This document shows positions 1 to 55,982 of a stretch of DNA of 55,982 nucleotides, one piece after another. The stretch is from a virus, in IMG/VR virus record IMGVR_UViG_3300025289_000030, positions 1-55,982 of that record. The stretch is one strand, 5' to 3'. The first letter of the stretch is position 1. Each line of letters starts with the position of its first letter. The notes beneath the pieces are model-generated. The model worked only from the letters and a program-made list of their open reading frames with translations. It ran no database searches and had not been told where the DNA came from. The translations under genes were made by a program, and so were the position numbers.

Positions 1-845
1 TCGTAGCAGCTAAAAAATAGGCATATTCCATTTTTTTGTGTAGTATCCCATTTGTTGTCTTTATAAGGATCTACTGAATTCCAAGTTGCTAAAGGAGTGC
101 TGAGTGCCCCATGTAGATCAAATTTAGAAGCGCTATTTCCTATTGCAATACAGCTAAATTCTACTCCACCTGCTTCTAAATTAGGTAAGCTTTTTAAAAT
201 TGCTGGATTTAAATCAGTAGCTTCGTCAAGAACTACCATTATAGCTTCTTTAGGATGCTTTCCTATCCAATTTGAAATTGTTTGTTCATCAGTGCCGCGC
301 CCTGCGGCAACCGCGTACATGCCGTGAATTGGATCGTTTTTATCATATAAGACTTTTGGGCAGTTTCCTCTAAAGTACCTATAAGGATATTGAATAGCTA
401 ATTCAGATAATAAACGAGTGATATACCCCCAGATACGTGTTGTAGCCGATTCTAGGGTGGTAGAAGCGACAATTACCGTTCTTTTATTAGGAGCAGCTAA
501 CCAAAATAATATTGCAATTCTAGCTGCCATATGACTTTTACCAGTACTTGCACCGCCTGCATAACTTATATAGTTATGACCATTACAGTGTGCTTGAAGC
601 CTTCTTTCGTCCCAATAGTTCCATGTAGGAATTAAATGAGGCCACGCATAATCATGCATAGCTTTTATATGTAGGTATTTTTCTTCAGAATTTTTACTTT
701 CTCTATAAAGTTTAGCATGTATTGCAAAAGGATGATTATAAGTAAATTCTTTATTTCCAATAATAACTATTCTTTTTCCTAACTTATTTTCAATTTTCCA
801 GTCTTCAGCGTATATAATATCATCAAAGGGGTATTGCTTACTCAT
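1..845 (-). CDS. terL: Terminase large subunit, N-terminal ATPase part (truncated by window edge)
   Basis: This is the DNA-packaging motor ATPase. Reading leftward from the ATG at 845 gives 281 open codons to the window edge. A Walker A motif (GGASTGKSH) lies at about residue 97-105 and a Walker B-like segment (IMVVLDEATDL) at about residue 205, the usual spacing for a phage large terminase. The C-terminal RNase H-like nuclease domain lies outside the window. The gene is divergent from the portal-side genes, with only 25 bp between start codons. Possible upstream elements are weak: an AAAGA-like Shine-Dalgarno and a TATAAA about 10 nt before the start. The family call rests on the two ATPase motifs and on the position next to the portal. 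Confidence 0.88.
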   Translation of the reverse strand, partial: MSKQYPFDDIIYAEDWKIENKLGKRIVIIGNKEFTYNHPFAIHAKLYRESKNSEEKYLHIKAMHDYAWPHLIPTWNYWDERRLQAHCNGHNYISYAGGASTGKSHMAARIAILFWLAAPNKRTVIVASTTLESATTRIWGYITRLLSELAIQYPYRYFRGNCPKVLYDKNDPIHGMYAVAAGRGTDEQTISNWIGKHPKEAIMVVLDEATDLNPAILKSLPNLEAGGVEFSCIAIGNSASKFDLHGALSTPLATWNSVDPYKDNKWDTTQKNGICLFFSCY

Positions 846-6305: not shown

Positions 6306-8147
6306 ATGCCAGTAGCAGAATGCAATCTTACAGAACAGGAAGTATCAGATGCGTTTTTAGCAGCACCTCCTGCGATTTCACAAGCAATTATAGACTTATC
6401 AATTATTAATCCAGTTTGGTTAAGGGACCTTTATAAAATTCAAGAGTGGCCTCGAGGTAGTGGCACTCAAATGCAGCAATTAATTGTTAGGGGCGGTAGA
6501 CCAAAAATTGAACGTGGTTTTGCTGCTTGGAAGAAATTAAATAATAACACTGGTTGTGATCCCTGCGATGGTCCAGATTGTTCTTATAACTGGACGACTT
6601 TTCCAGGACTAGGTATTGAGAGAAAAGTAACTAGCCTTATGAGTAGGGAGTTTAAATCACCTCCTTATTGTATTAAAGAGATTCAAACTACTTCAAATTT
6701 TAAAGAAGTTTTTGCGAAAGTAGTTGAAAATCTTTATGCACAAGTTGATTACTTTAAAGAACTTAATATTGGTCAAAACATTCTAACTGAATTAGCTAAG
6801 AAATATGTAGTTGATTCAGGCGGACCAAAACCAAATACACAAAATCCGTATGTGTATAGGCCTGCTGGAACAGCTAGATTATCTACATTAAATATTGAAA
6901 TGCTTGAATTTTTCTATGAATATATGAGAAAAATTCCAGATTGTGTTCCTTATGATGTAGTAAACGGCTCTCCAATATTTTCAATTATAGCTTCACACCA
7001 ATTACTTGGAAGATTGTATAGAGATGACCAGGATTTACGTCAAGACGTAAGATTTTCTGGCTTAGCTAATGATTTACTAAGTAAATATAATTTCATGAGC
7101 ACAATTAGGGGCATGTTTATAGCAGCTCCTGTGCTTTACCCAAGACGTTTTATTTTAGATGCTGTAACAGGTGTAGCAACTGAAGTACTTCCTTTTGTAG
7201 ATGAAATCCCAATGGAAGTAGGCTCATTTACAGGATTTAATCCTTTATATGAAGCAGCTACTCATGAAGAACTTATACTTCATGGAAAATTTCCATTTAG
7301 TATATTTGTAATGCCGACTGAACAAAGTTTAGGGCAAAATACTTCATTTGGTCCTGAATTTAGTCTCTTTAATAATTGGGCTTGGATTAATCCACTTACT
7401 ATGGAAGATCCATTTAGGCGTCTTGGTTATTTTGCTACAAGTGCTACTATCGGTATCAGTCAACAGTATAGCGATGGAATCTTTGCAATACTTGTAGAAC
7501 GTGTACAACCTAATCTTGCGGCAACATGGCTATGTGAGCCATTATGTCCTCCAGAAACAGTGGATTGTGATAATGAAGTACCAGATGTGACTTGTCCTTG
7601 CCCATTAATACTTGGCTTTACAGCTAACCCAATAACTGGAAATAGTTATATTATTACTTTAGCAGTACCGACTACTGCTGTAGTAACTGATGAAATTCAA
7701 TTTGGAATTGATACTGGCGGTTATGTAACAGGTACTGTAACAGGAGTATCAGCCGATAGTCTTTCAGTAGAAGTCACTTTCCCACAAGGAACTGATTTAG
7801 GTAATTGTGACAGATTCACAACTATCTTCTGTGATGACACATTAGGTTGCTCTGCAAATATAATTGATTACCGTCCAAATTGTACTGATAACACCAGGGT
7901 TGACTTAGTATTAAGTAATCCAATTAAGGGTGATGTTGGTGAAACTATCACAATTACAAATGGTGATGGAACTACAAGTGATGTAACCATTATAAGTATT
8001 GACTACACAACTAATACTTGGGTAGTCGATTACGGTGCTACAGTATTCTGTGATACTGTTGGTGGTCTTGTTTCAGTCTGTGTACCGACTGCAACTGATG
8101 CTTCATGCCCTGCATGCGGTGGACCAAGTGCTACACAATGTAGTTAA
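6306..8147 (+). CDS. Major capsid protein (putative), with Cys-rich C-terminal extension
   Basis: A 613-residue protein in the canonical place after the scaffold, with its own promoter and a terminator behind it, as expected for the most abundant virion protein. The first ~415 residues look like a globular HK97-type coat, without a motif that proves it. From about residue 415 the protein changes character: beta-rich, Thr/Val-rich and with many cysteines (for example CEPLCPPE, CPCP, CPACGG), probably one or two Ig-like or disulfide-bonded decoration domains. The open frame extends to a TTG at 6291, but GGAG at 6296 places the start at the ATG at 6306. Confidence 0.7.
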   Translation: MPVAECNLTEQEVSDAFLAAPPAISQAIIDLSIINPVWLRDLYKIQEWPRGSGTQMQQLIVRGGRPKIERGFAAWKKLNNNTGCDPCDGPDCSYNWTTFPGLGIERKVTSLMSREFKSPPYCIKEIQTTSNFKEVFAKVVENLYAQVDYFKELNIGQNILTELAKKYVVDSGGPKPNTQNPYVYRPAGTARLSTLNIEMLEFFYEYMRKIPDCVPYDVVNGSPIFSIIASHQLLGRLYRDDQDLRQDVRFSGLANDLLSKYNFMSTIRGMFIAAPVLYPRRFILDAVTGVATEVLPFVDEIPMEVGSFTGFNPLYEAATHEELILHGKFPFSIFVMPTEQSLGQNTSFGPEFSLFNNWAWINPLTMEDPFRRLGYFATSATIGISQQYSDGIFAILVERVQPNLAATWLCEPLCPPETVDCDNEVPDVTCPCPLILGFTANPITGNSYIITLAVPTTAVVTDEIQFGIDTGGYVTGTVTGVSADSLSVEVTFPQGTDLGNCDRFTTIFCDDTLGCSANIIDYRPNCTDNTRVDLVLSNPIKGDVGETITITNGDGTTSDVTIISIDYTTNTWVVDYGATVFCDTVGGLVSVCVPTATDASCPACGGPSATQCS

Positions 8148-35213: not shown

Positions 35214-35486
35214 TTAAGCGCATGGCGATTGTTCTATTTCTTCTCCATTAATATTTCTGCTAGCCACATCATCTAAACAAATTCCTTTTATACCCCACAT
35301 AAGTGCTTCTTCTAACTTAGTATAGCAAAGAGCTGTTTCACGAGAACAGCTTAAATTAGATCTAAGCATTTGTTCTAAATGACTAAACATTTCTCTTAGA
35401 AGTTCGCATTTAAGCTTATTATCATCAGATAAATCAGAAATATAAGCAAAATTACAAGTAGAGTTTCTTTTACAATTAGTTTCCAT
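35214..35486 (-). CDS. Acb2/Tad1-hairpin-like protein, possible cyclic nucleotide sponge
   Basis: A 90-residue protein starting at the ATG behind AGGGAA. The core CSRETALCYTKLEEALMWGIKGI matches the signature RExxLAxTKLEEAxMWxxxAI that I associate with the Acb2/Tad1 helical-hairpin family, whose studied members bind cyclic oligonucleotides or NAD-derived signals and so block CBASS or Thoeris defence. Here the N terminus carries extra cysteines (NCKRNSTC), unusual for the family. First gene after an operator-bearing promoter at 35512-35546. Family membership is likely from the motif; the sponge activity is not shown. Confidence 0.6.
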   Translation of the reverse strand: METNCKRNSTCNFAYISDLSDDNKLKCELLREMFSHLEQMLRSNLSCSRETALCYTKLEEALMWGIKGICLDDVASRNINGEEIEQSPCA

Positions 35487-35546: not shown

Positions 35547-35704
35547 CAATGATAATCCATATAACAAAAATTATCTGTGGGACAATTTATATATTGATAA
35601 CGAATACATTTTTTATTAACTGTAAGAGGCGTACAACTGCTTAAAAATACTATAATAAATAACGCGATAAATTCTATAATAATTATAATAAGTATTAATC
35701 TCAA
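35543..35704 (-). CDS. Small lipoprotein, 53 aa, TTG start
   Basis: The TTG at 35704 overlaps the stop of the regulator gene (TTGA) and follows AAAGAGATATTAAT. The product has a very hydrophobic N terminus (RLILIIIIIEFIALFIIVFL), then the lipobox LSSC, with Cys-24 as the acylated residue, and a short mature part with four more cysteines. It is a candidate outer-membrane spanin-like or surface-exclusion lipoprotein. The alternative, a plain membrane peptide, cannot be excluded. Confidence 0.6.
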   Translation of the reverse strand: MRLILIIIIIEFIALFIIVFLSSCTPLTVNKKCIRYQYINCPTDNFCYMDYHC

Positions 35705-36075
35705 ATTAATATCTCTTTAATGCTTTTAGGATGGATACTATTTAGAATATGATTAGTAGTCCTGGCATCAAAGCCAATTCCTTTAACTATATCCTCCCAA
35801 GGGACTCCTTTACCTTCATAAAGTACTACATCTTCATAATTAAGCCCAAGTCTCGGTACTTTAAGTTTTCTAGAAACATGCCCTACTAAATGTAGAGGTA
35901 CTTTGCCCCTAAGTTTCCAATTAAGAGGAGCTTGTTGATGCACTCTCAAAAGTTTACTTACTTCAGTAACCCCCCCAAACTTTTCCCAAAGATATTGAAT
36001 AAGTAGTGCTTGACCTTGCGTTCTTTTAAGAGTATGTCTTTCTCCACCACGAAGATCTAATTTTTTATTTTTCAT
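35701..36075 (-). CDS. YdaS/Cro-like helix-turn-helix regulator, candidate phage repressor
   Basis: A 124-residue basic protein. The segment FGGVTEVSKLLRVHQQAPLNW-then-KLRGKVPLHLVGHVSRKL reads as a YdaS/Cro-type helix-turn-helix (GG-V/S-x-x-L-A-K-L-L-x-V-x-Q-Q-x-V-x-x-W, then R-G-x-V-P). The C terminus includes a second helical part. The ATG at 36075 has no Shine-Dalgarno but lies at the predicted transcription start of the promoter at 36082-36110, like lambda cI from its maintenance promoter. The promoter spacer carries a copy of the phage-wide 17-bp dyad, so autoregulation is inferred. It is the only obvious regulator in the window. Confidence 0.7.
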   Translation of the reverse strand: MKNKKLDLRGGERHTLKRTQGQALLIQYLWEKFGGVTEVSKLLRVHQQAPLNWKLRGKVPLHLVGHVSRKLKVPRLGLNYEDVVLYEGKGVPWEDIVKGIGFDARTTNHILNSIHPKSIKEILI

Positions 36076-36081
36076 AACTTC

Positions 36082-36110
36082 ATTATATATCAAAACGATT
36101 GTAATTACAA
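36082..36110 (-). promoter_or_regulatory. Leaderless promoter of the regulator gene with operator in spacer
   Basis: Leftward TTGTAA (36105-36110), 17-nt spacer, perfect TATAAT (36082-36087), with the ATG 6 nt further on. The spacer and -10 edge (36086-36102) match the 17-bp dyad at 13 of 17 positions (CAATCGTTTTGAT core). Confidence 0.65.
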
Positions 36111-36112
36111 GC

Positions 36113-37954
36113 TTATGTTTTTGCCGCAGCCCAAGAGTTACCACTTCCTACTTTAACTAAATTATTTATAACACCATTTGGAAAAACACTTAAGTAGCCA
36201 TCAATCATAGCTTTTTTAATAGCATTTTTTACTATTAATTTATTAACTTTACCATCAGAACATTCAACTAGAATTTCATCATGCACACAATTTACAATAT
36301 GAGCATTTAATTTTTTTTCGTCAATAATATTTTGTAAAATAACTAAAGCATAAAGCATAACTTCAGCAGCACCGCCTTGAATAGGAGTATTCATAGCAGT
36401 ACCATAAGTATTTTCTTTATCTAATTTTCTTACTTTACCGCATGGTGTAGTTACTCTAAGAGTACTTGAACCAATATCGACTTGATTCATCTGCCATTTA
36501 GTGTAGCCAGAGTAAGTAGTTCTAAAAGCATTTATTGCGTCATATGCTTCATCGTCACTTACTTCTACACCATAAGATTTTTTAGCATAGTGTGAAAACT
36601 TCTTAGCGCCTAAACCAAAAAGAAACCCAAAATTAGCAGCTTTAGCACTTTGGCGTTCAGTCTCTGTTACATGCTTAATATTTTTTCCTGATATTTTAGC
36701 GGCAGTTAACGCATGTAAATCTAGACCATCTCTATAAGCTTTAAGCATATTCTTATCCTGACTCACTTCGGCTGCTACTCTAAGTTCTATTTGATTATAA
36801 TCAGCACAGATAAATGTGTAACCATTTTTTGGTATAAAGTTACCCCGTATACCAGAATCTTTTGGAGCATTTTGCATGTTAGGTCTAGTACTTGATAGTC
36901 TTCCTGTTCTTGTGCCACATATATTGTAACTTGCATGTATTCTTTCACTTTTAGGATTTATCATATTAATTAAATTAAACCCGTAAGTAGATGTGAGTTT
37001 TTCTTTAGTCTGAAATTCATGAAAAGGCTTAACAATAGGTAAATAAGAAAAGTCACTAAAGGTGTGGTTATCTGTAGAAAGTTTTCCTTTTTCAGTTCTA
37101 GGCCAGAGATATAACACCTCTTTAGGTAAATTACCTTCCAGCCAAGTAGCAATTGTATGACTTGTAATTTTATTAAGTCCTGTTATCTTTTCAACTTCTT
37201 TTTTAGCTTTATAAAGATCTTCTCTCCATTTTAGAATCATTTCTTGATGGTGTTCTTTATTAATTCTAAGACCGTTTAGTTCTAATTTAGCTATTGGATA
37301 AATTGCATCTTTATATAGTTTATAAATTCTTTCTAGTTTAAATTTCTCTAAGCCGATTACTAATTTTTCCGCTAATTTTAAAACTAACACTGCATCAAGA
37401 GCAGCATATTCAATTTGTTCAAAGGTAAGAAACTTATTACCCCAAGCAGAAGCTTGTAACTCTTTATTAACTTTTTCCTTAAAAACTGTTTCAATAAGTG
37501 CATCTAGTCCAAAGGATAGTCCAGCATCATTTGGGTATGTTGCATGCATAATGAGTTTAGCTAATATCATAGTACAACCTATATTTGGCTTTTTTATACC
37601 GTAATTAAGTAGAAATTTCATTTCAAACATCGCGTTATGTGCTATAAACCTTTTAGTTTGAAGTAATTTAGCTAATTCAAATTTTTCCCAATTAACTTTT
37701 TTCATGTCAATTACGTAAGAAGTAACACCATCAAAAATTTGAATGAGTCTAATATAAGCAAGATGTGGCGATAATCCTGCCGTTTTTCCTAAATGTGTAT
37801 ATTCAGATAATGGTGCTGTTTCAATATCAAGACCAAGTAAGTTATCACACTTATTTAAAACTTTAAGTGCGTTTTCAAGCATAGTATCGTTAGTTATATA
37901 CTTAGCTTTATAAGTTTCGCCGTTAAATTTTATTCTAAATTTTTTAATTTTCAT
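36113..37954 (-). CDS. polA: Family A DNA polymerase with 3'-5' exonuclease domain
   Basis: A 613-residue replicative polymerase. Residues about 30-180 are the DnaQ-like proofreading domain (GLDIETAPL, the Exo I Asp-Glu). The polymerase part has motif A CADYNQIELRVAAEVSQD (about 385), motif B RQSAKAANFGFLFGLG (about 435-450) and motif C CVHDEILVE (about 560-570) with catalytic Asp. It is shorter than bacterial PolA and lacks the 5' nuclease, like T7-type enzymes. The ATG at 37954 is preferred over a TTG nine codons upstream; neither has a strong binding site. Next gene upstream is the ssDNA-binding protein. Confidence 0.92.
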   Translation of the reverse strand: MKIKKFRIKFNGETYKAKYITNDTMLENALKVLNKCDNLLGLDIETAPLSEYTHLGKTAGLSPHLAYIRLIQIFDGVTSYVIDMKKVNWEKFELAKLLQTKRFIAHNAMFEMKFLLNYGIKKPNIGCTMILAKLIMHATYPNDAGLSFGLDALIETVFKEKVNKELQASAWGNKFLTFEQIEYAALDAVLVLKLAEKLVIGLEKFKLERIYKLYKDAIYPIAKLELNGLRINKEHHQEMILKWREDLYKAKKEVEKITGLNKITSHTIATWLEGNLPKEVLYLWPRTEKGKLSTDNHTFSDFSYLPIVKPFHEFQTKEKLTSTYGFNLINMINPKSERIHASYNICGTRTGRLSSTRPNMQNAPKDSGIRGNFIPKNGYTFICADYNQIELRVAAEVSQDKNMLKAYRDGLDLHALTAAKISGKNIKHVTETERQSAKAANFGFLFGLGAKKFSHYAKKSYGVEVSDDEAYDAINAFRTTYSGYTKWQMNQVDIGSSTLRVTTPCGKVRKLDKENTYGTAMNTPIQGGAAEVMLYALVILQNIIDEKKLNAHIVNCVHDEILVECSDGKVNKLIVKNAIKKAMIDGYLSVFPNGVINNLVKVGSGNSWAAAKT

Positions 37955-41562: not shown

Positions 41563-41675
41563 AACTTTCTACCGACCCAAAAATAGCCATTCCAATAATA
41601 TAAATAACAATTATCATTGCCATAATAAAAAGTTCCAGTTGAACCCGTAGTTTGGAAACAACTAATATATTCCAC
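41559..41675 (-). CDS. Aromatic-rich 38-aa protein, GTG start
   Basis: A short frame whose GTG (41675) overlaps the protease stop (TAGTG), behind AAGGAG at 7 nt, and whose stop overlaps the next start (ATGA). The product is Tyr/Trp/Gly-rich (TFYYGNDNCYLYYWNGYFWVG). An alternative frame from an internal ATG gives a 23-residue hydrophobic peptide. Coupling at both ends favours a real gene. Confidence 0.55.
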   Translation of the reverse strand: MEYISCFQTTGSTGTFYYGNDNCYLYYWNGYFWVGRKL

Positions 41676-42313
41676 TAGATTTCTCCTTCTCTTTTTTCAA
41701 ATCTTAGCCAATACTTAATATCTTTTTTACTCTCTAAACTAAAGTCGCAGTTGTAATTAGGAGCGCAGGTAAAGCTTGCATTACTATTCATAACACTAGG
41801 AATAATATAATCATCATGTATAGCTCCTAAATTATGTCCAAGTTCGTGCGCCATAACTAAAGCTACTCTATAAATATTATAATGAGCATGAATCATGCTA
41901 AAATTATGACCTACTTCTCCACAAACGTACCCAAGTCCACCATAAAGATTACCACCAAATTCATTTACAATAGGAGTTACAATAAACATTGTAAAAGTTT
42001 TTCTTTTTACTCTTTTATTTTTATATGCATTTATCCATTTGTAAAACCTAGTATAAAAATATTCTGGTGCACGTAAAGAACTTGTAAAATCTTTAACATA
42101 ATAAATTTTTCTGAGTTTTATAATAACTCCTATTTTTCTAAATTTTACTTTAGCTAATTTAAATGATTCTTTAAGAATAAATTTATTTATAGCATAGTCA
42201 GCTACTATAAATTTTACATAAAACGTTCTTTCTTTAAGTGATAAGAGAGCTTCGGCTGGATTTAAGTTAAAAAAATATATTACTATTAATAAATAGCTTA
42301 AAAATTTATACAT
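41675..42313 (-). CDS. Exported metzincin metalloprotease (reprolysin/ADAM-like)
   Basis: A 212-residue protein with an N-terminal signal peptide or anchor (residues 4-22, FLSYLLIVIYFFNLNPAEA). Zinc motif HELGHNLGAIHD at 156-167 (H156, H160, H166, catalytic E157) and Met-turn SVMN (Met-175) define a metzincin. GGLGYVCGEVG before and CAPNYNCDFSLES after resemble the reprolysin/adamalysin (M12B) catalytic domain, although this protein is shorter than the family's ~200-residue domain plus prodomain. It likely acts in the periplasm or outside, cleaving host surface proteins. Neighbours are a lipoprotein and a membrane peptide. Confidence 0.85.
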   Translation of the reverse strand: MYKFLSYLLIVIYFFNLNPAEALLSLKERTFYVKFIVADYAINKFILKESFKLAKVKFRKIGVIIKLRKIYYVKDFTSSLRAPEYFYTRFYKWINAYKNKRVKRKTFTMFIVTPIVNEFGGNLYGGLGYVCGEVGHNFSMIHAHYNIYRVALVMAHELGHNLGAIHDDYIIPSVMNSNASFTCAPNYNCDFSLESKKDIKYWLRFEKREGEI

Positions 42314-42639: not shown

Positions 42640-42668
42640 TTTATAGCACTCAATCAGATTGATAGCAA
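42640..42668 (-). promoter_or_regulatory. Leaderless promoter of the exported protease operon
   Basis: Leftward TTGCTA (42663-42668), 17-nt spacer, TATAAA (42640-42645), ATG 6 nt later. The spacer contains TCAATC-T-GATTGA (13 bp, 42650-42662), which shares both half-sites with the 17-bp dyad but with 1 instead of 5 bases between. It could be bound by the same regulator only with a different register. Confidence 0.55.
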
Positions 42669-46136: not shown

Positions 46137-47435
46137 TTATTTCCTATCAAGTACTGCTTTAAATGTTTCTGTTTTATTAATTAATACTTTTACAATATAT
46201 TCTTCTAATGAATCTTTTACTACAAAGTAATAAATATTAACAGAATTTTTCTGTCCTATCCGATGCAGCCTATCTACACTTTGGTTTATAACCGCAGGAC
46301 TCCAATCTAGTTCTGCTAATATTACGTGACTAGCGCGAGTTAGAGTTATACCAGTGCCGGCCGCAGTAAACTGCCCAATAAATAAATTAGTTTTAGCTTC
46401 TTGAAAAGCTTCTACATAATCAAACCTGTCTTTAGCACTTGTGTCACCAGTAATTATTACTGGTTTAAATTTAGCCAATGCAGCACTTAGTTTTCTTATG
46501 AATTCTCTATGATAAGCAAACAGCACTACTGGTATATTATTTTCTAATAAATTACTTGCAAACTCAGCTATAGCAGGCACTTTAAGCTCTGCTTGAAGGC
46601 GGCGATGCTCTGCTAAAGAATGAGGCACAACCGCAGTTTTTGCATAATCCGCAATGTCAGTTTCTAATCTATCGTTTTCTTCTTTAGTAGTTTTAAGTAA
46701 ATACTCAGCACCAAGTTTTATTTCAGTATAAATCTTAGGCGGTAAATCTTTTAAGACTTCATCTTTTTTTAGTCTTATATAGAAATTACTTTTAATTATT
46801 TTAGAAAGTTTCTTAGTGTTCCTAGCACCAATAATTTTAACGCCCCAAGGTGTCGGTTTCTGGTAAGCATATTCATTAATAAAACTATAGTAATTAGTAA
46901 ATTTTTCAGGCAGCATTTTATTAAAAAGAGTATATCCGTCTGCGACTGATTGCGTGAAAGGAGTGCCCGATAATGCTAGGCGATAAGCAGCTAGATGCCA
47001 AATTTTTTCTAATATTGCTACAGTTCGTTTTGTTTTTCTGGTTTTTATGTAGTGACTTTCATCGAGAATAAGTAAATCAATTTTAGCTGGCAATTTATTT
47101 ATAAATACATCAGAACGAGCAATGTCGTAAGACACAATAGTGTACTTTTTATAAAGCAGCGTCTGCTTAGATGCTAATATAACATCAATGTCCGCACTAA
47201 CACCCCATTTCATAATCTCAGCTTCCCAAGTATAGCGCATTATGGCGGGACAAATTATAAGAATATTTTCAGCATTTAAATACTTGGCAGCACGAATAGC
47301 ACATATAGTTTTACCCAGTCCCATTTCCAAAGCACAGTAGCAAGACCTTTCTTTATTTTTCTCTTTTAGAAAATAAAGTATTTGACCTACCGTGTCTTCC
47401 TGAAATGTAAAAAGTTTTAAAGGAGTTTGCAGCAT
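46137..47435 (-). CDS. SNF2-family DEAD/H-box helicase
   Basis: A 432-residue protein with Walker A MGLGKTICA (about 40-48), motif II LILDESHYI, motif III LSGTPF, and the C-terminal RecA domain with TAAGTGITLTRA (motif V) and QSVDRLHRIGQ (motif VI). This is the SNF2/Rad54-like set (D-E-S-H box, HRIGQ), as in other phage SNF2 proteins. Likely remodels protein-DNA complexes or branches during replication. The start overlaps the stop of the Ser/Arg-rich gene (TAATG), so it is translated with the cassette upstream. Confidence 0.88.
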   Translation of the reverse strand: MLQTPLKLFTFQEDTVGQILYFLKEKNKERSCYCALEMGLGKTICAIRAAKYLNAENILIICPAIMRYTWEAEIMKWGVSADIDVILASKQTLLYKKYTIVSYDIARSDVFINKLPAKIDLLILDESHYIKTRKTKRTVAILEKIWHLAAYRLALSGTPFTQSVADGYTLFNKMLPEKFTNYYSFINEYAYQKPTPWGVKIIGARNTKKLSKIIKSNFYIRLKKDEVLKDLPPKIYTEIKLGAEYLLKTTKEENDRLETDIADYAKTAVVPHSLAEHRRLQAELKVPAIAEFASNLLENNIPVVLFAYHREFIRKLSAALAKFKPVIITGDTSAKDRFDYVEAFQEAKTNLFIGQFTAAGTGITLTRASHVILAELDWSPAVINQSVDRLHRIGQKNSVNIYYFVVKDSLEEYIVKVLINKTETFKAVLDRK

Positions 47436-47671
47436 TATACGTTTCTTCCTGATTCACACAGTGAAGTAGAATAGGCACACCCATAAAATCCGTCTTTAAA
47501 TCTAGAATAAGATCTTGAACAAACTCTCCAGCTCGAATCTATTTTAGACCTACAAAAAGAACTGAATTTATATTCATAGTTATGTGTTCTACAAATTGAA
47601 GTACCTATTTTAAAGTAAGCACTTCTAGATTTAGAATAATAATAAGACTCTTTAACCATTAAATAAATCAT
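47435..47671 (-). CDS. Tyr/Ser/Arg/Cys-rich small protein, copy B
   Basis: A 78-residue paralogue of the gene at 47990-48226 (CSRSYSRFKDGFxGxAYSxSLCxSGR common to both). Composed of degenerate ~14-residue units with alternating aromatic and small or basic residues, for example SSWRVCSRSYSRFKDG. Such alternation suits beta-strands or a solenoid. Overlaps both neighbours (ATGA; TAATG). Function unknown; part of the coupled helicase cassette. Confidence 0.65.
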   Translation of the reverse strand: MIYLMVKESYYYSKSRSAYFKIGTSICRTHNYEYKFSSFCRSKIDSSWRVCSRSYSRFKDGFYGCAYSTSLCESGRNV

Positions 47672-47853: not shown

Positions 47854-47993
47854 GGTTTTAAGCTTTGAGAAGTAGAATCGCTATATGGTAACTCCCACAT
47901 TCCGCTTCTTGAATATGACCATCTATACTGCCAATGATATGTGTGGGAATATGAAAACCTATTATTTTTATAATTGCGTATAAAGTGCATCAT
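47850..47993 (-). CDS. Trp/Tyr/Ser/Arg-rich small protein, 47 aa
   Basis: A frame of 47 codons fully coupled to its neighbours. Core: SYSHTYHWQYRWSYSRSGMW. It belongs to the same degenerate repeat type. Too short for usual gene callers but supported by the overlap chain and composition. Confidence 0.6.
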   Translation of the reverse strand: MMHFIRNYKNNRFSYSHTYHWQYRWSYSRSGMWELPYSDSTSQSLKP

Positions 47994-48226
47994 AAATGTC
48001 TACCTGAATTACAAAGTGAATTAGAATATGCAAAACCAAAAAATCCATCTTTAAATCTAGAGTAAGATCTAGAACAAACTCTCCATCTGGAATCTAGTCG
48101 AGATGCACAAAAAGAAGTAAATTTATACTCATATTTATGTACTCTACAGACTGAACCACACATTTTAAAATAAGCGCTTTTTGATCTAGAACAATAATAA
48201 GGCTTTTTAATTATAAAATAAATCAT
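47990..48226 (-). CDS. Tyr/Ser/Arg/Cys-rich small protein, copy A
   Basis: 78 residues, about half identical to copy B, suggesting a tandem duplication with the two shorter genes between. At the DNA level, CTAGA/TCTAG-type hexamers recur at 9-15 nt steps. The start overlaps the upstream stop (TAATG). Function unknown. Confidence 0.65.
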   Translation of the reverse strand: MIYFIIKKPYYCSRSKSAYFKMCGSVCRVHKYEYKFTSFCASRLDSRWRVCSRSYSRFKDGFFGFAYSNSLCNSGRHL

Positions 48227-48489: not shown

Positions 48490-48516
48490 ATATACCTTTA
48501 TTAAAAATAAAAACTA

Positions 48517-48546
48517 TGCACCGCAGCATGATTGTACTACGGCGCA
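48517..48546 (-). ncRNA. Leader stem-loop upstream of the cassette
   Basis: On the minus strand TGCGCCGTAG pairs with CTGCGGTGCA around a 10-nt loop: 10 pairs of which two are G-U. On the plus strand the same two positions are mismatches (A-C), so RNA pairing is conserved only on the transcribed strand. It lies in a ~95-nt leader between the promoter at 48590 and the start at 48489. Confidence 0.55.
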
Positions 48547-48589
48547 CAGAAAGCCCATGCTTTTTTAAAAGTTTGATCAACTTTTATAA

Positions 48590-48635: not shown

Positions 48636-48707
48636 AGGCTTAGGTGGGAATCGAACTCACGAATATTGGGTTTGCAATCCAATGCATTACCACTTTGCTA
48701 CTAAACC
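48636..48707 (-). tRNA. trnC: tRNA-Cys (GCA)
   Basis: A 72-nt cloverleaf on the minus strand: acceptor GGTTTAG/CTAAGCC with one G-U, anticodon loop TTGCAAA with GCA, T loop TTCGATT, discriminator U73 (a Cys identity base), no encoded CCA. Two stem positions, one in the anticodon stem and one in the T stem, are A-C mismatches. Cysteine fits the many Cys-rich virion proteins. A TATAAT ends 3 nt before the tRNA 5' end, but no clear -35 is seen. Confidence 0.85.
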
Positions 48708-48722
48708 ATATTATAATCAGTA

Positions 48723-48762
48723 CAATAAAACAGCCCCTTAAAATATTAATTCTAAGAGGCTG
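48723..48762 (-). terminator. Leftward intrinsic terminator upstream of the tRNA
   Basis: On the minus strand CAGCCTCTTA (48753-48762) pairs with TAAGGGGCTG (48731-48740), 10 pairs with one U-G, followed by TTTTATTG. On the plus strand the same site has a C-A mismatch and no T-run, so it works leftward. Confidence 0.7.
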
Positions 48763-48894
48763 CCGAAATACTATTGTTATTTATGTTAAGTCTATTTAAG
48801 GAGAACAGTCGTACTTTGACTGCTTAAAAATTATAATAACTGATTATTTTAAATTTAGCTAGCCAAATTAATTTCATTAGCGTATATATTTTTA

Positions 48895-48915: not shown

Positions 48916-48947
48916 GCAATCAAAAATATTGTAATATTGGCTCTTTA

Positions 48948-53944: not shown

Positions 53945-54343
53945 CTAATACTCAGTGGTGAGCATTATGACAAACTTAACGGGGTCATAATCAGCTAGTT
54001 GGCTGTAACATTGAAAAGGACTAAGCGGAAAGTCAGTAAAACTTAGTTTAGTTTGATCTAGAATATTATTGTTACCGTCGGAATATTGAATAACCGCTTC
54101 TTTTCCTTTTTTAAATAATCTAACTACAATAAATACATTATCATTATTTTTCTTGTATAATTCTAATGTTTTAGCGGCTATTTCATTCATTAACCAATAG
54201 CAATTTGCTTCATTAGCTAAATAAGCCATGCCGTCTGTGAATACGACATTTTTAAACAATGTAAGCCTATGATAGTTTTCTGTACCATAAAACTGATGTA
54301 AATCAGCTTGTGTTAATTCTTTGTTTTCTTCAGTGTTATTCAT
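53945..54343 (-). CDS. Hypothetical protein, 132 aa
   Basis: A soluble acidic protein (LTQADLHQFYGTENYHRLTLFKNV... FPLSPFQCYSQLADYDPVKFVIMLTTEY). The C-terminal pattern reads like small phage proteins of unknown function that follow a DUF6876-type layout, but I am not certain. It is the first gene after the operator-bearing promoter at 54402-54430. Confidence 0.65.
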   Translation of the reverse strand: MNNTEENKELTQADLHQFYGTENYHRLTLFKNVVFTDGMAYLANEANCYWLMNEIAAKTLELYKKNNDNVFIVVRLFKKGKEAVIQYSDGNNNILDQTKLSFTDFPLSPFQCYSQLADYDPVKFVIMLTTEY

Positions 54344-54372
54344 AAGTTATGTCCTTTTTTAAGTTAAAATAT

Positions 54373-54430
54373 TCAATTTTTATGATTGACTTTATTTTTT
54401 AAGTATAGTCAATCAAAATGATTGAGTCAA
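54373..54430 (-). promoter_or_regulatory. Leftward promoter with a perfect operator in its spacer and a second dyad downstream
   Basis: Leftward TTGACT (54425-54430), exactly 17-nt spacer, TATACT (54402-54407). The spacer is occupied by the perfect dyad TCAATCA-AAA-TGATTGA (54409-54425). A second copy with 15 of 17 matches lies at 54373-54389, 36 bp away, in the leader. A repressor here would block polymerase directly. Drives 54343 leftward. Confidence 0.8.
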
Positions 54431-54431
54431 G

Positions 54432-54536
54432 CTAAATGCAAAATAAATTTAATATGATAATTAATCCAATTATACGAATAATTGCTGTTAGAGTTATTTG
54501 TACAAAAGGTTTAATAAAATCAAGTAGTTGTATCAT
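54432..54536 (-). CDS. 34-aa membrane peptide
   Basis: A small frame 3 nt after the upstream stop, ending 2 nt before the promoter. MIQLLDFIKPFVQ then hydrophobic ITLTAIIRIIGLIIILNLFCI. One TM helix. Weak ribosome binding site (AAGAG). Function unknown. Confidence 0.5.
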   Translation of the reverse strand: MIQLLDFIKPFVQITLTAIIRIIGLIIILNLFCI

Positions 54537-54539
54537 ATA

Positions 54540-54767
54540 TTATGCTCTTAAAAACATTTCAGTTACATGCAGTCTAGCCCAATCCTCACATGTATTTTCC
54601 CACGGCATGAGTCGCAAAGCCTTAATCATATGTTTTGTTGGTATATCTTTATGTGGAGGTCGTTTATTATACTGCTGCACATAATCAGCTATTGCAGCAT
54701 TGTAATAATCGTTATCAGTTAGTTTATAGTAACTTTGCTCGTTTTTAGCTTTTTTTGTATAGTCCAT
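54540..54767 (-). CDS. Hypothetical basic protein, 75 aa
   Basis: A short soluble protein (YNAAIADYVQQYNKRPPHKDIPTKHMIKALRLMPWENTCEDWARLHV) with AAAGGCATAAT ahead. The 84-nt gap to the upstream gene holds ATAACTCA/TGAGTTAT (8-bp arms) but no operator. Unknown; early-region gene. Confidence 0.65.
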   Translation of the reverse strand: MDYTKKAKNEQSYYKLTDNDYYNAAIADYVQQYNKRPPHKDIPTKHMIKALRLMPWENTCEDWARLHVTEMFLRA

Positions 54768-54851
54768 ATTATGCCTTTCTTTAAGAGAGTATAATTACTC
54801 TAATAATAACTCATATGTTAATAATGCAATGTGAGTTATCAATTACAGTAA

Positions 54852-55406
54852 TTATATACGCCAAATTACTTCTATTTTTTCAACATTTTCTGTTTTTAAT
54901 AATAATTCTAATGGATTATTAGAATTATCAGTTAATAATATGTGTCCAGTAAATTTTTCTGGTACAAGATGCATAAAGTCTTTTGGTATAAGATAATGAG
55001 TATCGAGACCTTGCAAAATTATACCGTCAAAGTCATATTTTACATTTTCTATGCTGCACCATAAGCCAAAAGATCCATCGTTAAAACCTAGGTATGTATA
55101 GTCTGGAGTGTAGGTATTAAGTATATCACATGCTTCAGTGACTAACTCATCTGCAATAGATTCTAGTTCACCATCTAGATCAGAATCTACATTAGAATTA
55201 CGATATATTTCATTTAGTTCTTTATTAGTTGAACTAATAAATTTACCTATTTCAAGTAATAAAGCCTTTGTTTTATTGCATTTTATAGCTAATTGTATTG
55301 TTAGACTTTCATTTAGTAAGTCATGCAAAAAACCAAGTACATTACGATTATCTCTAATACTCATGTCTAAGTAGCAGCCAATTTCTAATTTTAATTTTTT
55401 ATTCAT
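54852..55406 (-). CDS. Hypothetical protein, 184 aa
   Basis: An acidic soluble protein (helical first half; beta-rich second half with YTYLGFNDGSFGLWCSIENVKYDFDGI). GAAGGATTAAAAA precedes the start. Its C terminus resembles ligand-binding or small-domain proteins, but no family is known to me. First gene of the rightmost leftward unit. Confidence 0.65.
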   Translation of the reverse strand: MNKKLKLEIGCYLDMSIRDNRNVLGFLHDLLNESLTIQLAIKCNKTKALLLEIGKFISSTNKELNEIYRNSNVDSDLDGELESIADELVTEACDILNTYTPDYTYLGFNDGSFGLWCSIENVKYDFDGIILQGLDTHYLIPKDFMHLVPEKFTGHILLTDNSNNPLELLLKTENVEKIEVIWRI

Positions 55407-55440
55407 TTTTTAATCCTTCTGATTGATTTAATTGATTAAA

Positions 55441-55461
55441 TTATTGCATTGTTTGCAATAA
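55441..55461. repeat. 7-7-7 inverted repeat in the leader
   Basis: TTATTGC (55441-55447) and GCAATAA (55455-55461) with a 7-nt loop, between the promoter and the gene at 55406. May be an attenuator or part of an operator. Confidence 0.5.
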
Positions 55462-55465
55462 AAAC

Positions 55466-55507
55466 ATTTTCGCATAATTTTTAGATCGTGTCAATCATTT
55501 TGATTGA
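55466..55507 (-). promoter_or_regulatory. Leftward promoter overlapped by a perfect operator
   Basis: Perfect dyad TCAATCA-TTT-TGATTGA (55491-55507). The leftward -35 TTGACA (55489-55494) overlaps its end; 17 nt on is GAAAAT (55466-55471) with an extended TG at the -10. This is the promoter for the 184-aa gene unit. Confidence 0.7.
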
Positions 55508-55982
55508 AATAATAAAAATAAATTAAACTCACACATAAAAACACTCACACATTTAGCTCATGCCGCAAGCCTCGCACTTATTAGTATATTAATTCAGTAT
55601 ATTCAATGTATTATATGTATATATTATGTGTGTTATTAGCTAAGTCCTTACTATGCATCACATCCCGAGAATAATAATTCTAGTGAAGTAGACTTTGCTT
55701 AAGATTGATATAGGTGAGGTATAAAGAGGACTCTCTTATTTTTAGGATTCTATTAGAGTCAGGAAAAATTTAGACCGCCCCCGTATGTACTCTATATGTA
55801 CATCCGTATTTTTTACTCACATCGCGCAATAGAAGCAATCTTTTTGATTGAAATTACACTAATATAAGCAATCTTTTTGATTGAATGTAACCCATTACCT
55901 ATACAAATAGCACCCCCACCCCACCCCATTTAGGATCTTCATATACTAATTCTATGTGCATGTATTGCATTTTTAGTGCTTC
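55508..55982. other. Right-end non-coding region with paired operators
   Basis: 475 nt without a convincing gene. 55528-55553 has two ACTCACACAT copies. ATGTAC/GTACAT arms (55784-55803) form a dyad. Two identical GCAATCTTTTTGATTGA sites (55835-55851, 55868-55884) lie 33 bp apart, each 15 of 17 to the phage dyad. A rightward TTGATT-N17-TATACA (55877-55905) overlaps the second site. 55913-55927 is C-rich (three runs of 4-5 C). Probably a divergent early control region, with more genes beyond the edge. Confidence 0.6.

Follow-up and report, generated by a model that had tools for sequence, protein, structure and literature searches.

A probable set of repressor-like sites with a promoter-distal pair beside a phage methyltransferase gene

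The right end of the window and its continuation in relatives

The DNA analysed here, called the window below, is the whole 55,982-nucleotide stretch of IMG/VR virus record IMGVR_UViG_3300025289_000030. Its right end is occupied by the 3' end of a leftward methyltransferase gene, and 14 bp past the stop codon of that gene (55899–55901) lie two operator-like sites, which are exact copies of GCAATCTTTTTGATTGA with a start-to-start spacing of 33 bp (Table 1). The sequence-only reading had singled out these two identical 17-mers and their spacing, and both were found exactly where it had placed them. All 84 window bases of the methyltransferase gene are identical in a close relative, the gene is also intact in two others, and the C-rich run at 55913–55927 is its 3' coding end. 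The first leftward gene after the sites encodes a 184-aa protein that has no Pfam, PHROG or NCBIfam match at an E value of 0.1, and further to the left is a gene for a DUF6876 protein, a family that is not mentioned in the literature searched.

Table 1. Positions of genes, promoter matches and operator-like sites in the window
Feature	Position	Strand	Description
Terminase large subunit gene, N-terminal part	1..845	-	Continues in L005:6449-8323; phrog_2 E=1.4e-15 (L005 protein)
Weak candidate regulator, 147-aa protein with Cro-like stretch	35701..36144	-	phrog_8008 'DNA binding protein' E=2.8e-4
One-mismatch site	48917..48931		Upstream of rightward primase/helicase gene
DUF6876 gene, 132 aa	53945..54343	-	PF21781 E=1.5e-26
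One-mismatch site	54374..54388		Just downstream of inferred start of the 54402-54430 promoter; 36 bp from spacer site
Promoter match TTGACT-N17-TATACT	54402..54430	-	10/12; precedes DUF6876 gene
Operator-like site TCAATCAAAATGATTGA	54409..54425		Exact core 54410-54424; in -35/-10 spacer of 54402-54430
184-aa gene	54852..55406	-	ORF; first leftward gene after the sites
One-mismatch site TAATCCTTCTGATTG	55411..55425		In leader of 184-aa gene
Promoter match TTGACA-N17-GAAAAT	55466..55494	-	10/12, TG before -10; precedes 184-aa gene
Operator-like site TCAATCATTTTGATTGA	55491..55507		Exact core 55492-55506; overlaps -35 of 55466-55494
Operator-like site, pair member 1	55835..55851	+	GCAATCTTTTTGATTGA exact; 55833-55851 = 19/19 identical in L005
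Operator-like site, pair member 2	55868..55884	+	Same 17-mer, exact; 55866-55883 = 18/18 identical in L005
Methyltransferase 3' end, cut by window edge	55899..55982	-	Whole gene L005:8918-9454, 178 aa; PF13578 E=1.2e-10

Three IMG/VR contigs, L005, L006 and L007, match the window at about 97–99% identity in long pieces that reach both of its ends, and at 89% in its last 150 bases. The right end of the window corresponds to position 9371 of L005 and the left end to position 7293, with 2,077 bases between them, so that the window represents almost all of a circular map. By this alignment the genome does not end at the window edge; what lies there is a contig break of some 2.1 kb in the circular map, and comparison with the relatives places it inside the terminase and methyltransferase genes. 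Followed rightwards from the window, these 2.1 kb hold the rest of the leftward methyltransferase gene, then two rightward genes (103 and 105 aa) whose family matches are all at E=0.07 or weaker, and finally the leftward gene for the terminase large subunit. L006 and L007 likewise have all four as open genes of the same lengths. The three contigs are identical to one another at 649 or 650 of 650 positions in the stretch compared, and so count as about one comparison, or one lineage.

Wider searches brought little beyond these contigs. The 184-aa protein matched only the same three plus one weak, short match (L008), and the DUF6876 and terminase proteins matched the same three alone among viral contigs. 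For the terminase, 14 pattern stretches in genome contigs yielded none that was confirmed and the phage collection gave no match, nor did that collection match the DNA of the right 24 kb of the window. Distant matches to the primase occur in 903 phage records, but identity stays below 60% in all of them, and in no case is 80% of the query matched at a single place. What the analysis offers for this phage, which has no collection match for its right 24 kb or its terminase, is a specific motif whose sites are exactly located, together with two promoter matches and a single weak candidate for the regulator.

Since the window edge is a contig break in a circular map, claims about genes beyond it can be checked in the relatives. 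It had been suggested that important early rightward genes may lie past the edge. In all three relatives the DNA there begins with the opposing methyltransferase gene, and the first rightward gene begins 491 bp past the edge, behind it; the suggestion found no backing, and the two rightward genes lie further on.

A palindromic motif in noncoding DNA

Both copies of GCAATCTTTTTGATTGA share the palindromic core CAATC-N5-GATTG. With up to three mismatches the 17-mer is matched six times in the window, a number reached in none of 100 shuffles (mean 0.58, maximum 3). Exact cores occur four times (at 54410, 55492, 55836 and 55869) and all four are noncoding, as are all nine cores with at most one mismatch (those at 42647 and 42651 overlap), in a window whose noncoding share, according to a gene list chosen by hand, is 7.1%. 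When the noncoding segments were shuffled 500 times with dinucleotides preserved, exact cores averaged 0.002 (maximum 1) and cores with at most one mismatch 0.094 (maximum 2). When two mismatches are allowed the core is at chance level, with 23 observed and 24.69 expected. Four exact copies of one 5-N5-5 arm are not rare over the whole window, where 4 or 5 copies are also reached by each of four other arms, and in the noncoding shuffles some arm reached four copies in 2 of 500. The unusual feature of the motif is its concentration in noncoding DNA, not its copy number over the whole window.

Two of the sister sites lie on promoter matches. A consensus scan of 54340–55982 gave two best matches of 10/12 each; both are leftward and each bears an exact core, one in the spacer and the other over the -35 hexamer. 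Over the whole window there are six noncoding promoter matches of at least 10/12, and two of the six overlap a core. Promoter matches are fewer than in shuffled sequence, with 7 against 12.4 expected in 54340–55982 and 8 against 17.5 expected in L005 8200–11100, so that what argues for them is their placement ahead of genes, together with the sites. The spacer and the -35 hexamer are usual places for a repressor site, and exact cores on the two best leftward promoter matches suggest a repressor. A repeated, sequence-specific site thus lies over core promoter elements, as far as consensus matches define these. At the pair itself the same scan found no promoter match of at least 9/12; its two members are 344 and 377 bp away from the site over the -35 hexamer of the 184-aa gene.

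The relatives show how the surroundings of the pair have changed. From 55400 to 55680 the window and L005 are identical at 271 of 281 positions. Within the pair all 37 site positions compared (55833–55851 and 55866–55883) are identical, with site limits that were drawn after the alignment had been seen and that leave out the last base of the second 17-mer; the relatives carry T, not A, at the base matching 55884, so that the second 17-mer read without a gap is 16/17. The flanks and spacer of the pair are identical at only 20 of 37 positions, with 55 gap columns. In the relatives the two sites are 63 bp apart, and a third copy with one mismatch stands 31 bp further on. That the sites are kept while the flanks have been rewritten supports selection on the sites; shuffling of repeat units could yield a similar picture, and the relatives represent one lineage. 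We note that another noncoding stretch, 55681–55784, is just 63/103 identical to L005 and lies between stretches that are 271/281 and 40/40 identical.

The pair had also been held to place bound dimers on the same DNA face, three helical turns apart. At 10.5 bp per turn its 33 bp do make 3.14 turns, and the spacings in the relatives make 6.0 turns (63 bp) and 2.95 turns (31 bp), but the second window pair, at 54374 and 54410, comes to 3.43 turns (36 bp), so the helical phasing is only suggestive.

The distribution of the motif outside this phage was followed in IMG/VR with TCAATCWTTTTGATTGA, the promoter-type 17-mer pattern. It was present in 97 stretches, against 23 for a control pattern of the same composition, and ORFs of 80 aa or more contain 75 of its 99 copies and 13 of the 23 control copies. 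The excess is poor evidence of enrichment, because the copies are mostly within ORFs and the control arms contain TAG. Among all 97 stretches, an intergenic copy with a second site within 1.5 kb was found only in those of the three relatives, which makes a phage-specific regulator more likely than a common host box. The candidate of a host box or wide motif was rejected on the ORF placement of most copies and on this confinement of the intergenic clusters. By these matches the operator set would seem to be peculiar to this phage group, and the literature searched contains none of the four 15-mers.

The gap before the primase/helicase gene, in which one of the one-mismatch sites lies, also holds a tRNA-Cys gene (anticodon gca, 48636–48707, minus strand). 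Two leftward terminator-like hairpins flank the tRNA gene (48514–48549 and 48729–48764; shuffles expect 0.1). Close by are two neighbouring related genes, 47435–47671 and 47990–48226, which encode 78-aa proteins rich in Ser, Cys and Arg and are identical at 187 of 231 DNA positions.

The search for a regulator

The regulator scans covered 41 of the 66 listed window genes with Pfam, 14 of the 66 with PHROGs and 10 proteins with NCBIfam; 24 of the 25 genes left out of the Pfam scan are in the rightward block 1448–32056. A regulator could have escaped detection with this partial Pfam and PHROG coverage. The HTH_3, tyrosine recombinase and serine recombinase families were each found in none of four records that may be incomplete, and control genomes matched for HTH_3, integrase and resolvase in 14, 14 and 11 of 14 cases, respectively; there is thus no sign of a lysogeny module. 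The scans made gave a sole, weak candidate regulator, the 147-aa protein with a Cro-like stretch. Besides its PHROG match it has an NCBIfam match to carph-isopro (E=1.9e-6) at 27.9 bits, below the cut-off of 38, and marginal similarities to Pfam P22_Cro (E=0.18) and Cro protein 3bd1 (E=0.12). Its predicted structure has a mean pLDDT of 35.5 and is unusable, and carph-isopro is absent from the literature searched.

A 101-aa protein encoded at 35214–35519 matches the Acb2/Tad1 hairpin domain PF24729 (E=1.7e-7), a family known from phage proteins that sequester cyclic nucleotides. The leftward gene block also encodes a zinc metalloprotease-like protein (41675–42313; Reprolysin PF01421 E=1.6e-5), whose start looks signal-like by eye.

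Possible roles of the pair and comparison with known systems

The description of the 17-mers as operators is supported, at the level of sequence, by the noncoding bias of the motif, by the sister sites on promoter matches and by sites kept amid changed flanks. Both pair members are genuine repeats and part of a small repressor-like set that probably serves ordinary phage gene control. A more specific reading, to which we give about an even chance, is that they are promoter-distal operators of a phage regulon whose core operators sit on the two leftward promoters. On this reading each site would be bound by a dimer of a protein that recognises this DNA sequence, in all likelihood a repressor encoded by the phage. 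The core operators would be the one in the -35/-10 spacer for the DUF6876 gene and the one over the -35 for the 184-aa gene, where bound repressor would shut both leftward promoters by blocking RNA polymerase. Additional dimers on the distal pair would act cooperatively with the one bound over the -35 of the 184-aa gene, for example by looping. We infer the protein binding, the repression and the joint action of the pair with the leftward promoter. Cooperating auxiliary operators are the most likely role of the pair, and a transcription block is the main rival.

A block of that kind, in the manner of a stoperator or roadblock, would have the bound protein halt leftward transcription that arrives from the methyltransferase gene, leaving the next gene to be transcribed from its own promoter only. 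The place of the pair just past the methyltransferase stop codon suits this, as do the lack of a promoter match of its own and the common orientation of both copies (all three in the relatives). There is a precedent in the stoperators of Cluster A mycobacteriophages, which are described in PMC6550527 as blocking elongation. Against it, just two or three sites stand in one place and the palindrome is found on promoter matches as well; we consider it unlikely as the role of the pair. That the sites serve a host regulator or a phage activator instead of a phage repressor would fit the scans made, which hold no clear phage repressor gene, and is improbable in view of the spacer site (in a 17-bp spacer) and the -35 site, both of which suit repression, and of the 97 IMG/VR stretches, among which no other intergenic motif cluster appeared. 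Sites of quite different purpose, either iterons of a replication origin or small-terminase sites at a packaging start, are suggested by repeats that vary in copy number and spacing between close relatives and by an AT-rich gap near the terminase genes. The same palindrome is present on two promoter matches, though, and GC skew follows the coding strand and otherwise does not mark the location of the pair, which leaves this a distinctly improbable account.

Nor does a rightward promoter over the second site, governing early genes beyond the edge as the earlier reading had it, agree with what was found, and its probability is very low. The letters TTGATT-N17-TATACA are present at 55877–55905, with 4/6 matches in each hexamer, and the consensus promoter scan did not list them. 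All three relatives keep TATACA, which falls in the last codons and the stop of the methyltransferase gene that points the other way; the hexamers that stand 16, 17 and 18 bp before it in the relatives (TCTATT, TTCTAT and ATTCTA) each match TTGACA at only 2/6, so the -35 is lost there. Apart from these letters, the rightward genes of 103 and 105 aa speak for the proposal, as does a different rightward 9/12 match in L005 (9668–9639), left of the sites, which is at chance level and has no listed counterpart in the window; against it stands the whole methyltransferase gene that precedes the first rightward gene. The gene order of the gap and the hexamers of all three relatives led us to reject a rightward promoter with hidden early genes. 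Slightest of all is the chance that the repeats act as RNA hairpins of a leftward leader or terminator and not as DNA sites. The leftward RNA of 55780–55900 (minus strand) does fold better than all 200 shuffles (z -3.60). For a corresponding, longer stretch of L005 (171 nt), however, the z score is -1.56 and 15 of 200 shuffles fold as well, and for the rightward strand of the window it is -1.77, equalled in 10 of 200. Each site on its own makes five pairs (-2.8 or -4.2 kcal/mol), and the scan of 54340–55982 listed no terminator-like site.

Taken further, the repressor reading would describe a private operator set in a phage that has no recognisable lysogeny module, read by an unrecognised DNA-binding protein, with a distal array (33 bp here; 63 and 31 bp with the third copy in the relatives, which are about 99% identical) that acts at a distance on a leftward promoter or as a transcription block and is being rebuilt quickly while its sites are kept. 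We put this fuller picture forward as a rather doubtful one.

The operators of lambdoid CI and Cro proteins are several near-palindromic copies of 15–17 bp on or near early promoters, with neighbours that allow cooperative binding. The set described here resembles them in having a repeated near-palindromic site on and near promoters, with neighbouring copies. Unlike the lambdoid sets, its sites are on two separate leftward promoter matches and in a distal pair, with no divergent promoter pair listed at the sites, and the HTH_3 and integrase families were matched in 0/4 records. A lambdoid immunity region would have divergent early promoters around a repressor gene and an integrase elsewhere; the promoter scans listed no such pair at the sites, and integrase and resolvase were both at 0/4 in the records, which may be incomplete, so the set does not qualify as one. 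The stoperators of Cluster A mycobacteriophages number up to 30 sites of 13 bp, mostly in one orientation, according to PMC6550527; unlike these, the motif here is a palindrome present at a handful of sites, and in place of many one-oriented sites off promoters there are four exact ones, two of them on promoter matches. Like the Cluster A phages L5 and Bxb1, as portrayed in the same source, the phage described here would have one motif placed both at a promoter and away from promoters.
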